Assembly: GCA_016196925.1 (NCBI GenBank)
Contig: JACPWS010000047.1
Location: 62,001 to 126,000, forward strand
Direction of reading: 5' to 3'
Source of the DNA: Burkholderiales bacterium
Lineage (GTDB): Bacteria; Pseudomonadota; Gammaproteobacteria; Burkholderiales; Burkholderiaceae_D
Length of the DNA: 64,000 bases
The notes under the pieces were generated by a model. That model was given only the letters and a program-made list of their open reading frames with translations, did no database searches and was not told the origin of the DNA. A program made the position numbers and the translations under genes. Shown piece after piece: positions 5,959 through 62,765 of this stretch. The first letter of the stretch is position 1. Each line of letters begins with the position of its first letter.

Positions 5959-6086
5959 CTAAGGAAACACGATTTAATCGGGTTTCGTCATCCCCGCGAA
6001 AGCGGGGATCCACCTCAATACTTAATTGACATGGATTCCCGCTTTCGCGGGAATGACGCCTTTTGATTTAATCAGCGCCTCCCTAA
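5959..6086 (+). mobile_element. MITE/REPIN-like element, copy 1
   Basis: A 128-bp non-coding element. The outer ends are CTAAGGAAACACGATTTAA and, at the right, GATTTAATC followed by a segment ending CCTCCCTAA; these are imperfect terminal inverted repeats. Inside are two REP hairpins in opposite orientation: GTCATCCCCGCG with its complement, then ATTCCCGCTTTCGCGGGAAT. The same plan occurs at 12845, 42971 and 45308. The right end lies two bases from the purC stop codon and the left end lies 79 bases upstream of the Sua5 gene. Confidence 0.85.
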
Positions 6087-10257: not shown

Positions 10258-10342
10258 GATGAAATCACGGACTCATTCGGATTTCGTCATTCCCGCGAAA
10301 GCGGGAATGACGCTTTATTTAGTTACCCCGTGCTTACTTAAT
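10258..10342. repeat. solo REP palindrome, probable relict of the MITE
   Basis: A perfect 26-base palindrome occupies 10286-10311, with half-site GTCATTCCCGCG. Flanking traces AAATCACGGA on the left and CCGTGCTTACTTA on the right resemble the MITE ends. It looks like an internally deleted fifth copy carrying one hairpin instead of two. It sits between pgk and pyk. Confidence 0.65.
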
Positions 10343-12844: not shown

Positions 12845-12972
12845 CTTAGGAAGCACGGATTTAATTGGGTCGTCATCCCCGCGAAAGCGGGGATCCACCT
12901 AAGGGTTCGATTTACATGGATTCCCGCTTTCGCGGGAATGACGCTTTTTGAATTAATCTGCGTTTCCCTTAG
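12845..12972 (+). mobile_element. MITE/REPIN-like element, copy 2
   Basis: A 128-bp element in the same orientation as copy 1, bounded by CTTAGGAAGCACGGATTTAA and, at the right, TTAATCTGCGTTTCCCTTAG. The two internal hairpins are ATCCCCGCGAAAGCGGGGAT and ATTCCCGCTTTCGCGGGAAT. It lies between the divergent azlC and zinc-finger genes and ends 14 bases before the ATG at 12987, leaving only the GGAG ribosome binding site outside the element. Promoter elements of the rightward gene must therefore lie in or beyond it. Confidence 0.87.
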
Positions 12973-24621: not shown

Positions 24622-25503
24622 TTACAGCATGGCTTTCAGCAAACGCGCCATTTCGGACGGGTTCTTGGTGGTTTTGATGCCGCAGGCTTCCATGATGTCG
24701 AGCTTGGCTTGCGCGGTATCGGCGCCACCGGAGATCAGTGCGCCGGCATGGCCCATGCGCTTGCCCGGAGGCGCAGTCACACCGGCGATGAAGCCGACCA
24801 CCGGCTTCTTCATGTTGTCGCGGATCCAGTAAGCGGCATTTGCTTCATCCGGGCCGCCGATCTCGCCGATCATGATGACGGCGTCGGTATCAGGATCGTC
24901 GTTGAACATTCTCATGACGTCGATGTGCTTCAGACCGTTGATCGGGTCGCCGCCGATACCGACTGCGGAAGACTGGCCCAGGCCCAGTGCGGACAACTGA
25001 CCGACCGCTTCGTAAGTCAGGGTGCCGGAGCGGGAAACCACGCCGATACGGCCTTTCTTGTGGATGTGGCCAGGCATGATGCCGATCTTGATTTCGTCGG
25101 GTGTGATCAGGCCAGGGCAGTTAGGGCCGAGCAGCAGAGTCTTGCTGCCGGCTTTGGCCATGCGGTCTTTCAACATCATCATGTCGCGCACCGGGATGCC
25201 TTCGGTGATGCAGATCGCCAGATCGAGGTCGGCTTCCACCGCTTCCCAGATCGCGGCGGCAGCGCCGGCCGGCGGTACGTAGATCACGGAAACGGTGGCG
25301 CCGGTGGCGGCTTTCGCTTCGGAGACGTTCGCGAAAATCGGGATGCCTTCGAAATCTTCGCCGGCTTTCTTAGGATTCACGCCAGCCACGAAGCAATTCT
25401 TGCCGTTCGCGTAATCGCGGCAACCGCGAGTGTGGAACTGGCCGGTCTTGCCGGTGATGCCTTGGGTGATGACTTTGGTGTCTTTGTTGATCAGGATGCT
25501 CAT
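24622..25503 (-). CDS. sucD: succinate-CoA ligase alpha subunit SucD
   Basis: A 293-residue alpha subunit of succinyl-CoA synthetase, which binds CoA and carries the phosphohistidine for substrate-level phosphorylation in the TCA cycle. The CoA-binding Rossmann start ITQGITGKTGQFH, the GPNCPGLITPDE block and the active-site GKRMGHAGALISGG with the phospho-His (about residue 248) are intact. AGAGGAA precedes the ATG. The gene is normally directly coupled to sucC; here a 370-bp REP-bounded cassette with a GIY-YIG gene lies between them, and only 18 bases of native leader remain. Confidence 0.97.
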   Translation of the reverse strand: MSILINKDTKVITQGITGKTGQFHTRGCRDYANGKNCFVAGVNPKKAGEDFEGIPIFANVSEAKAATGATVSVIYVPPAGAAAAIWEAVEADLDLAICITEGIPVRDMMMLKDRMAKAGSKTLLLGPNCPGLITPDEIKIGIMPGHIHKKGRIGVVSRSGTLTYEAVGQLSALGLGQSSAVGIGGDPINGLKHIDVMRMFNDDPDTDAVIMIGEIGGPDEANAAYWIRDNMKKPVVGFIAGVTAPPGKRMGHAGALISGGADTAQAKLDIMEACGIKTTKNPSEMARLLKAML

Positions 25504-25521
25504 ATTATTTCCTCTTTACTT

Positions 25522-25891
25522 GTCGTTCCCGCGAAGGCGGGAACCTAGTGTCTTTACGCCGTAAAATTTAAATACAGGTCGTTCCAATATGGATTAGCGC
25601 TTTCGATCAAGCGGATTTTCCAGTCGCGATGCCATTTCTTGATTTGCTTTTCACGAAGAATGGCGCTTCCCACATCTACGTGTTGCTCAAACCAAACCAA
25701 CTTATCGACCTCATGCTGACTGGCAAACCCTGGGACAAATTTATTCTTGTGTTGCCATACTCTGGCCGGCAACGCGGAAGTCACGCCTATATACAAGGTA
25801 CCGTTACGCTGGCTGGCCAGCATATAGACGTAATAATATTTGTCCATCGTTCATACGACGCTAGGTTCCCGCCTGAAGCCGCGGGAACGAC
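25522..25891 (-). mobile_element. REP-bounded GIY-YIG cassette inserted in sucCD
   Basis: The left boundary is GTCGTTCCCGCG, AAGGC, then GGGAACCTAGTGTC (25522-25552). The right boundary, read on the other strand, is GTCGTTCCCGCG, GCTTCA, then GGCGGGAACCTAGCGTC (25857-25891). They are inverted copies of one sequence, and each is itself a hairpin. Between them is exactly one gene, whose stop lies one base inside the left repeat. The cassette begins 5 bases past the sucC stop and ends 18 bases before sucD. Confidence 0.75.
25554..25847 (-). CDS. single-domain GIY-YIG nuclease
   Basis: A 97-residue stand-alone GIY-YIG protein. The family motif is seen as YVYML (about residues 6-10) plus LYIGVTS (18-24), followed by the catalytic-region R29 in ARVWQHK, the metal-ligand Glu66 in ILREKQIKKW, and the C-terminal ANPYWNDL. 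Small proteins of this kind are common and usually annotated as UvrC-like endonucleases, but their function is unknown. It is co-oriented with sucC and sucD, ends one base from a REP-like hairpin and starts 9 bases from another. This placement suggests a mobile gene. Confidence 0.9.
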   Translation of the reverse strand: MDKYYYVYMLASQRNGTLYIGVTSALPARVWQHKNKFVPGFASQHEVDKLVWFEQHVDVGSAILREKQIKKWHRDWKIRLIESANPYWNDLYLNFTA

Positions 25892-25896
25892 AATGT

Positions 25897-27063
<1,167 letters not shown>

Positions 27064-42967: not shown

Positions 42968-42970
42968 CAG

Positions 42971-43099
42971 CTAGGGAAACGCAGATTAAATCAAAAGGCG
43001 TCATTCCCGCGAAAGCGGGAATCCATGTAACTCAAACAGGTAGGTGGATCCCCGCTTTCGCGGGGATGACGAAATTCGGTTAAATCCGTGCTTCCCTAG
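42971..43099 (-). mobile_element. MITE/REPIN-like element, copy 3 (inverted)
   Basis: A 129-bp element in opposite orientation to the other copies, bounded by CTAGGGAAACGCAGATTAAA and, at the right, AAATCCGTGCTTCCCTAG. Both outer ends read CTAG, a palindrome, in this best-preserved copy. The two internal hairpins are the same as elsewhere in reverse order. It lies between the DUF486 gene and panB and ends 42 bases before the panB start. Confidence 0.88.
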
Positions 43100-45307: not shown

Positions 45308-45311
<4 letters not shown>

Positions 45312-45437
45312 TGAAGCACGGATTTATTTTAATTTCGTCATCCCCGCGAAAGCGGGGATCCACCTAAGTGCTTGATTCACATGGATTCCCGCCTTCGCGG
45401 GAATGACGCCTTCTGATTTAATCTGCGTTTCCTTAAG
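45308..45437 (+). mobile_element. MITE/REPIN-like element, copy 4
   Basis: An element of about 130 bp in the orientation of copies 1 and 2. The left end TTAATGAAGCACGGATTTA overlaps the TAA of the ABC ATPase gene; the right end TCTGCGTTTCCTTAAG provides the TAA of the converging carbonic anhydrase gene (45433-45435). The inner hairpins are ATCCCCGCGAAAGCGGGGAT and ATTCCCGCCTTCGCGGGAAT. Confidence 0.85.
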
Positions 45438-61342: not shown

Positions 61343-62765
61343 ACTGCATCAATTCATACAAAGCTGCAGTGCGCGCATATTGCGCACAACGGATCTTGAA
61401 CAAGCTATGCGGCGCGCACGTTTTCTCGGCGAGCTGCTCTGGAAAAACAATCTGGGCATATATCAGCTGGCAGAATTGGAAACGCAGCTGCTGCAACGAT
61501 ATGCCGGGTTGTTCACGCTACCGTATCAGTCCGCGCCGCGCCGCGCTTACCTGCACGTACTCAGCAAAGCCTATGACAGCGGCGGCCACACACGCATCGC
61601 AGAACATCTGTTGCACAGCGAACTGTTGCAAGACGCCGGCGTACTGGTCAGTGAAAAAGCGCAAACACTGAGTTTAAATAAGTTGCAAAGGGCCAAGCAC
61701 GGCTGCGTAGTCTTGCCGAGAATGCGGAACAGCCGGCAAAAGATACAGCGATTATTGGAGCATTTTGCGCAATATACGACGCTGCTGCTGCATATTCATC
61801 CGCATGACATAGAGACTGTCATGGCGGCGGCAATGGCGAAAAAATTCTGCGGGACTAGCGTGTATCTATACAATCATGCAGACCACGTGTTCTCGTATGG
61901 TTACGGCGTCATGGACAAGGTGCTGGAAATCAGTTATTTCGGCTGGGATTTGCGCGCAGCGCGCGGCACGCTGGATAAGTCGGTGTACGTCGGCATCCCG
62001 TTGAAACTGGCGGCAGCAGAGAAAAACCAAGCACCGCGTACGGCACTTCCCGAGGGGCACATCGCGACGGCCGGCACCGCCTACAAATACCGGCCCAGCC
62101 TCGGCTATTCCTTCCCGGAATTTGCACAGCAACTAGTCGCAACATCAAAAAAGGACTTGGTGCTGATAGGCCCACGCCTGCTGCTTGACTGGTGGTGGTG
62201 GCGCGCCGCCAGACAGATGGGCCAGCACGCGCATTTTCATCCGCGCATGCCTTACCAGCAATACCTGGATTTCATGGCGCACGCCAGTCTGTATGTGGAC
62301 AGCTTTCCCATGACCGGCGGCACCGCCTTTGCGGAGGTCGTCAGCCAGGGCTTGCCCTGCTTCGGCATACTGACCGGGGCGCACGGCTATTCTCCCGCCG
62401 ATCAATTAAAATCGCCGAGCCAGGCCGCACTCTTGCAAGACATCCTAGCCTATCTGCAAAACCCCGTCAGGCCAAGCGTGGATCAGGCGGCAGTCATACA
62501 ACAAGTCAGGCAGGTACATGCCGTGGAACAGGTTGCGCTCAGGATCAGCCGCGCCGGACTCATGAGTAAAGAGGAAAGCGCTCCGACCTGGGCTAATCCG
62601 GCAGCGATACGCGTCGATTTTTATGAGAAAATCTCGGCCTCAGCCAAGGTATTTGCCCCGACTGTGCATTGCCGCCCGGACTGGAAACTGAGCCTGCTGT
62701 TTTTGCGCTTCTGGATACAAAGCCGGAAGCACTCTGCCTTAATCAAAAATAAGATCAATCTATGA
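61329..62765 (+). CDS. putative GT-B glycosyltransferase (unusual family)
   Basis: A 478-residue cytoplasmic protein that I cannot place in a named family. The N-terminal half has SGGHTRIAEHLL (residues about 84-95), like the acceptor-side loop of GT-B enzymes. The C-terminal half carries YVDSFPMTGGTAFAEVVSQGLP (322-343), resembling the donor-binding segment of OGT/GT41-like and other GT-B transferases. Between are HIHPHDIETVMAAAMAKK and an acidic AHASLY. It lies between the flippase gene and a GT2 gene, overlapping both. The context supports a glycan-assembly role, but acceptor and donor are unknown. Confidence 0.65.
   Translation: MPTAELHQFIQSCSARILRTTDLEQAMRRARFLGELLWKNNLGIYQLAELETQLLQRYAGLFTLPYQSAPRRAYLHVLSKAYDSGGHTRIAEHLLHSELLQDAGVLVSEKAQTLSLNKLQRAKHGCVVLPRMRNSRQKIQRLLEHFAQYTTLLLHIHPHDIETVMAAAMAKKFCGTSVYLYNHADHVFSYGYGVMDKVLEISYFGWDLRAARGTLDKSVYVGIPLKLAAAEKNQAPRTALPEGHIATAGTAYKYRPSLGYSFPEFAQQLVATSKKDLVLIGPRLLLDWWWWRAARQMGQHAHFHPRMPYQQYLDFMAHASLYVDSFPMTGGTAFAEVVSQGLPCFGILTGAHGYSPADQLKSPSQAALLQDILAYLQNPVRPSVDQAAVIQQVRQVHAVEQVALRISRAGLMSKEESAPTWANPAAIRVDFYEKISASAKVFAPTVHCRPDWKLSLLFLRFWIQSRKHSALIKNKINL

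Follow-up and report, generated by a model that had tools for sequence, protein, structure and literature searches.

A GIY-YIG gene between inverted CGTC-type REP hairpins in a Burkholderiales genome: a candidate mobility enzyme for short palindromic repeats

Between sucC and sucD of a Burkholderiales bacterium lies a small GIY-YIG gene bounded by two inverted hairpins, and the locus raises the question of what this segment is and whether its predicted nuclease could be responsible for its presence there. The segment belongs to a stretch of 64,000 nucleotides (hereafter the window; positions 62,001 to 126,000 of contig JACPWS010000047.1, assembly GCA_016196925.1). Judging from its build and from comparisons with other genomes, it is probably a gene-bearing (autonomous-type) member of the CGTC superfamily of repetitive extragenic palindromes (REPs), in which REP hairpins surround the gene for a predicted REP-recognising GIY-YIG nuclease. 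The best reading of these comparisons is that the GIY-YIG clade may act as the cognate mobility enzyme of CGTC REPs, as the REP-associated tyrosine transposases (RAYTs) do for GTAG REPs, but as an unrelated nuclease.

The unit and its protein

The whole unit covers 372 bp (25521..25892, no strand assigned), from the outer tag TGTC (25521) to GACA (25892). The REP upstream of the gene, on its 5' side towards sucC (25857..25892, minus strand), has an outward TGTC tag, an 8-bp stem, an 8-nt loop and the tail CCTAGCGTC. The REP on the 3' side, towards sucD (25521..25555, plus strand), has the same outward tag, an 8-bp stem, a 4-nt loop and the tail CCTAGTGTCTTTA. Each end is a hairpin of its own, with energies as DNA of -8.9 kcal/mol on the sucC side (z -2.4) and -9.7 kcal/mol on the sucD side (z -4.0). 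The two ends pair with each other in outer inverted arms of 14 nt (25520-25533/25880-25893, 100% identity) and inner inverted arms of 18 nt (25535-25552/25857-25874, 94% identity). A preliminary description, made from the letters and a list of open reading frames (ORFs), had reported inverted near-identical ends around one intact single-domain GIY-YIG gene, with the stop one base inside its repeat and the ATG nine bases from the other. All of this was borne out, the stop codon overlapping the inner repeat tail and the ATG lying 9 bases from the other repeat.

The gene (25554..25847, minus strand) is intact and encodes 97 amino acids, as supported by the ORF list, Pfam and an AlphaFold2 model. 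The protein matches the Pfam family GIY-YIG (PF01541) over residues 4-78 with 51.8 bits, against a curated cut-off of 22.6, and the model has a mean pLDDT of 91.5. GIY-YIG enzymes are hydrolases, with two Tyr, an Arg, a Glu and an Asn as catalytic-type residues. In an alignment of the clade (41 rows), Y19, H33, E66 and N85 are invariant, and Y8 and R29 are found in at least 90% of the rows. By sequence, the protein is a member of the GIY-YIG superfamily and a predicted nuclease. No PADLOC or PHROG family matched it and there was a single weak phage record; a defence or phage function was rejected.

The description of CGTC REPs in the survey that defined them (Di Nocera 2013, PMC3733652) gives a CGTC or TGTC tag, a stem of 8-9 bp, a loop of 4-5 nt, a tail near CCA and an arrangement mostly in inverted dimers. 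The window REPs share the unpaired TGTC tag, found at both outer ends of the unit, and the 8-bp stem. Their loops are of 4 and 8 nt, the latter beyond the range given in that description, and both tails are CCT; the 8-nt loop and the CCT tails are variants of the CGTC-tagged type.

Recurrence, co-variation and empty sites

A contig scan for relatives of the protein returned 58 loci, mostly proteobacterial. Other relatives were in records labelled Nitrospirae, Atribacteria, Omnitrophota, Parendomicrobium, Gastranaerophilales, Patescibacteria, Magasanikbacteria and Flavivirga, labels that are fallible for metagenome-assembled genomes. An inverted-repeat score was calculated between the 200-bp flanks of each gene, with mixed flank pairs as the null. 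Strong inverted flank repeats were present at 34/57 relative loci with enough flank (8.5% of mixed pairs), and about 25 of these 34 have, by eye, a GTC tag in the matched stretch. In a second sample, from 397 genomes across the phylum, 22 of the 26 loci used (30 found, 2 already counted and 2 incomplete) had strong inverted flanks, not all of CGTC type, compared with 16% of mixed pairs. Whether homologues elsewhere carry the same flanks was a check proposed in the preliminary description, and both samples contain inverted ends of the same kind. On plasmids, 7/10 loci reach the flank score, while L158, L163 and L166 do not.

At many of these unrelated loci the layout is CGTC-hairpin-CCAGTGTCTTT, gene, AAAGACACTGG-hairpin-GACG, with stems that vary by locus and a left side that matches the right. 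At some loci, such as those of Azospirillum lipoferum and Neisseria gonorrhoeae, single REPs are replaced by a complete REP dimer on one side of the gene or on both. Hosts named for CGTC REPs in PMC3733652 that also carry this gene are A. lipoferum, Sinorhizobium meliloti, Novosphingobium aromaticivorans and Neisseria. On plasmid pNL2 of N. aromaticivorans a perfect inverted CGTC pair of 29 nt flanks the gene, and in N. gonorrhoeae the gene has dRS3-type repeats, some of them dimers, on each side. The flanks in S. meliloti are a mosaic of other palindromes. Controls gave few such flanks: 0/9 of the scored other GIY-YIG genes in REP-rich genomes (21 taken, 12 with too little flank) and 4/254 other ORFs of the same loci, these being all M-to-stop frames of at least 80 amino acids and many of them spurious, against 53/94 units.

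The repeats and the protein vary together. Across 31 units, chosen because two REPs were detected in each, the left and right REP of the same unit differ at 17% of 36 positions, compared with 40% in mixed pairs. The hairpins vary between genomes, and the distance between REPs correlates with that between proteins (Mantel r 0.40, p 0.0008, n 31); for the 462 pairs that differ by more than 25% the correlation is 0.38. Genomes with the clade are also richer in CGTC REPs, counted by a 4-nt-loop pattern that leaves other CGTC families outside the count. Among the 397 genomes across the phylum, at least 10 REPs were found in 37/113 clade-positive and 11/284 clade-negative genomes, and at least one, the unit's own repeats counted, in 61/113 and 38/284. 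The corresponding figures in a family sample of 195 genomes were 11/39 versus 12/156 for at least 10 REPs and 31/39 versus 39/156 for at least one.

The unit is present or absent at fixed sites. Its neighbours, sucC (upstream, 25897..27063) and sucD (downstream, 24622..25503), are both open and share one orientation (minus strand) with the nuclease gene, consistent with the earlier claim that both are intact around an insert; the search for empty sites in relatives, also suggested there, was successful. Among 30 genus genomes sampled, of which 28 sucC-sucD gaps were parsed and 2 were not, the gap is empty (10-32 bp) and shows no REP in 27/28, the source genome alone having the unit. Two more genus members with a unit at this place, G132 (404 bp) and G165 (373 bp), were found in a separate search. 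At purH-ruvC (28 genus loci, 26 parsed and 2 not) the gene is present in 7/26 genomes, and 19/26 have neither the gene nor a match to the narrow REP pattern used. In Azospirillum lipoferum 4B the gene separates sufB from sufC; it is absent there from three related strains, whose gaps show no CGTC REP. Among Sphingobium plasmids, 2/4 gene-less strains (L171, L172) hold at the unit's spot a solo palindrome with a CGTC tag at both ends, perhaps an excision footprint or a target, which could equally remain after deletion between repeats. The sucC-sucD rows are scattered in the protein tree. Repeated independent insertion at this site is not claimed, because the approximately unbiased test does not reject a single clade (p 0.20 with 7 rows, 0.31 with 4 rows).

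Altered copies were also seen. In the second GIY copy of the source genome (L002, 1441-1890), at purH-ruvC, an in-frame TAG interrupts the gene and an insertion damages the 3' REP. Two of the 19 gene-less purH-ruvC gaps (L236, L252) hold possible remnants, by eye: one is the start of the GIY gene without a REP, the other a bare REP end, CTGGAATGACA. In Undibacterium amnicola (L018, L076) the copy at sucC-sucD has an in-frame TAA and intact REPs.

CGTC REPs are found elsewhere in the window and in the genome. A search allowing up to 3 mismatches gave 8 REP-like matches at 6 distinct places of the window (mean 0.11 in 100 shuffles). A solo palindrome with the tag at both ends, CGTCATTCCCGCGAAAGCGGGAATGACG, lies at 10285..10312. 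Gene-less REP dimers with tags outward, each within a longer inverted repeat, were read by eye at 5986..6058, 12871..12943, 42999..43071 and 45336..45408 (no strand assigned to these features). The palindrome TTCCCGCNNNNGCGGGAA has 87 exact copies in the genome and its reversed control none; 17 gene-less dimers were read, in the window and at 15 loci of the 87 palindrome sites. There is a repeat of about 125 bp, resembling miniature inverted-repeat transposable elements (MITEs), with arms GGAAGCACGGATTTAAT / ATTAATCTGCGTTTCC and a CGTC REP dimer at its centre (window 5960-6080, 12846-12965, 42970-43095 and 45311-45430; L004, L008, L009, L014, L015 and L016). A 5-bp CTNAG direct repeat stands at both of its ends in 2/10 aligned copies (window 12846 and L009), the others being looser. 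A second long inverted repeat, GGTCCACGAAAAACACGAAAAGCACGAAAA, also surrounds CGTC REP dimers (L006, L011, L012, L017). L005 is a plain gene-less REP dimer of about 80 bp whose inner tails, CCAGCGGCTTT / AAAGACGCTGG, resemble those of the GIY units; from its sequence it looks like a gene-deleted derivative.

Proposed movement and alternative explanations

Most likely, the enzyme would recognise the hairpin and its tag, either as an extruded cruciform or in single-stranded DNA, and would cut the unit at its ends. The replication or repair machinery of the host could then insert the unit, or a copy, into another intergenic position, leaving no consistent target duplication. Since GIY-YIG enzymes are hydrolases, a lone domain of this kind would depend on the host for sealing. 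REP dimers that lack the gene would be non-autonomous derivatives, which the enzyme may process in trans. The earlier suggestion of a minimal mobile unit, made of a nuclease and terminal REPs, thus gains support from the empty sites and from the inverted ends on homologues elsewhere; the movement itself we still infer.

The preliminary description had identified no target duplication by eye, and testing found no consistent one either. With offsets of 0-3 per side and lengths of 2-9, the best of 16 offsets gave 2/38 at 4 nt and 1/38 at 5-6 nt among REP pairs longer than 250 bp (taken as gene-bearing by length), and 1/48 at 4 nt and none longer among small dimers. This absence fits a single-strand or repair-based insertion. 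At least 6 of the 8 outer bases are complementary in 6/38 long pairs (1.5% of mixed pairs) and in 1/48 small dimers (2.3%), which is suggestive of insertion into the centre of longer palindromes and is kept outside the argument. In three copy pairs more than 85% identical, at unrelated places, the match ends 0-14 nt from the outer tags. No exact junction emerged when four 50-kb stretches of Sphingobium plasmids were compared for polymorphic REPs, and searches of Rhizobium and Shinella plasmids gave no close empty site.

The unit may be compared with known elements. Its single ORF is the GIY-YIG gene and no consistent direct repeats occur at its ends, unlike DDE insertion sequences. GIY-YIG homing endonucleases of the I-TevI type and Slx1/UvrC domains share the catalytic fold and conserved residues, but here there is a lone 97-residue domain, flanked by REPs, without an intron or intein or a separate DNA-binding domain. 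Penelope-like retroelements use a GIY-YIG endonuclease in mobility, but the window unit has no reverse transcriptase. The closest parallel in plan is the REPtron, or REPIN-RAYT system, where the gene for a DNA-processing enzyme also lies between inverted REPs and gene-less inverted REP dimers occur in the same genomes. The enzyme there is a Y1 HUH transposase and the tag GTAG, whereas the gene between the window REPs encodes a GIY-YIG protein, unrelated to HUH enzymes, and the tag is CGTC/TGTC.

If the nuclease cut gene-less REP sites, repair of the double-strand break could copy the gene in, with the repeats as homology arms. Such homing would predict REPs at gene-less alleles, and the solo palindromes of the two Sphingobium strains might be read in this way, but deletion between repeats could explain them equally well. 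Homing is weakened because the genus empty sites show no REP, at sucC-sucD or, apart from the two possible remnants, by the pattern used at purH-ruvC; the three Azospirillum gaps have no CGTC REP. We regard it as unlikely, although it is the least unlikely of the alternatives considered. RAYTs (HUH, Y1) could instead move CGTC REPs, with the GIY-YIG gene as cargo or bystander between two of them. The source genome has one Y1_Tnp match, 19/24 examined genomes have Y1_Tnp, and some REP-rich genomes lack the GIY clade. The match of the source genome, however, lies on a different contig, where the 2.6 kb read around it contain no CGTC REP pattern, and none of the 15 Y1_Tnp stretches inspected, out of 34, has an adjoining CGTC REP by the 4-nt-loop pattern, the nearest, in one stretch, being about 940 bp away. 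Five of these 15 have other inverted flanks, one of GTAG type by eye. Among REP-rich genomes, three that are GIY-positive (G244, G401, G122) lack a Y1_Tnp match, but two clade-negative ones (G572, G355) lack both that and a GIY match. Di Nocera 2013 (PMC3733652) likewise reports no tyrosine transposase gene flanked by CGTC repeats. This explanation appears improbable.

Hardly better placed is a reading in which other transposases, or recombination among dispersed REPs, spread the unit and the nuclease does an unrelated job such as repair or defence. Exchange between REPs could shift a REP-bounded gene, and 15 of the 17 gene-less dimers are central in longer inverted repeats, of which one family has direct end repeats in some copies. 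The window unit, the only one checked for this, stands outside any such repeat, and an unrelated job is at odds with the co-variation of protein and REP and with the lack of PADLOC or PHROG matches. Mere coincidence would follow from REPs being common between genes, mostly intergenic as described in PMC3733652, so that a small intergenic gene is often flanked on both sides. It is strongly disfavoured by the control genes and ORFs above, and we give it very little credence.

Several observations also weigh against the GIY-YIG clade as the mobility enzyme. The flanks of 23/57 relative loci fall under the inverted-repeat threshold, including those of Flavivirga, Magasanikbacteria and both Atribacteria loci, and about 9/34 strong loci lack, by eye, a clear GTC tag, their palindromes being degenerate or of another type, as in the Legionella-type loci. 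There is no match to the 4-nt-loop pattern, which leaves other CGTC families uncounted, in 52/113 clade-positive genomes. Eleven clade-negative genomes of the phylum sample have at least 10 REPs, and in just 3 of these did a relaxed search detect relatives, all weak or partial. The associations and the Mantel test are uncorrected for host phylogeny. Both match ends lie within 8 nt of the tags in only 2/12 copy pairs, nine of which are 72-76% identical. As the 15 dimers inside longer inverted repeats comprise 11 of the MITE-like family and 4 of the second family, by eye, the copy number of gene-less dimers is no measure of GIY activity. Finally, a hydrolase would not by itself account for the sealing step, and cutting and movement are deduced from comparisons.

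Significance for the CGTC REP superfamily

CGTC REPs are widespread, being present in 5 phyla in the 2013 survey (PMC3733652). That survey found them unassociated with transposase genes and apparently without a dedicated transposase, and left their mobilisation to future work; here, by contrast, a GIY-YIG gene lies between the REPs. No published link of GIY-YIG proteins to REPs was recognised among the literature matches listed, with preprints outside the scope, and none is made in passages of PMC12306157 or PMC9465073. There is about an even chance that the lone GIY-YIG clade serves the entire CGTC REP superfamily as its dedicated mobility enzyme, in a range extending from dRS3 in Neisseria through the repeats of alpha-, beta- and gammaproteobacteria to those of several further phyla. 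REP mobilisation would then have evolved independently a second time, with a hairpin-cutting hydrolase in the place of the HUH transposase. If this is true, a mobility unit of about 370 bp would be run by a single-domain nuclease of 97 residues, and a function would be available for proteins currently labelled only 'GIY-YIG nuclease family protein' or 'excinuclease ABC subunit C'. A candidate enzyme family would make the question of CGTC REP mobilisation testable, and our comparisons suggest that this nuclease may be the partner so far missing for the spread of a common class of short palindromic repeats.
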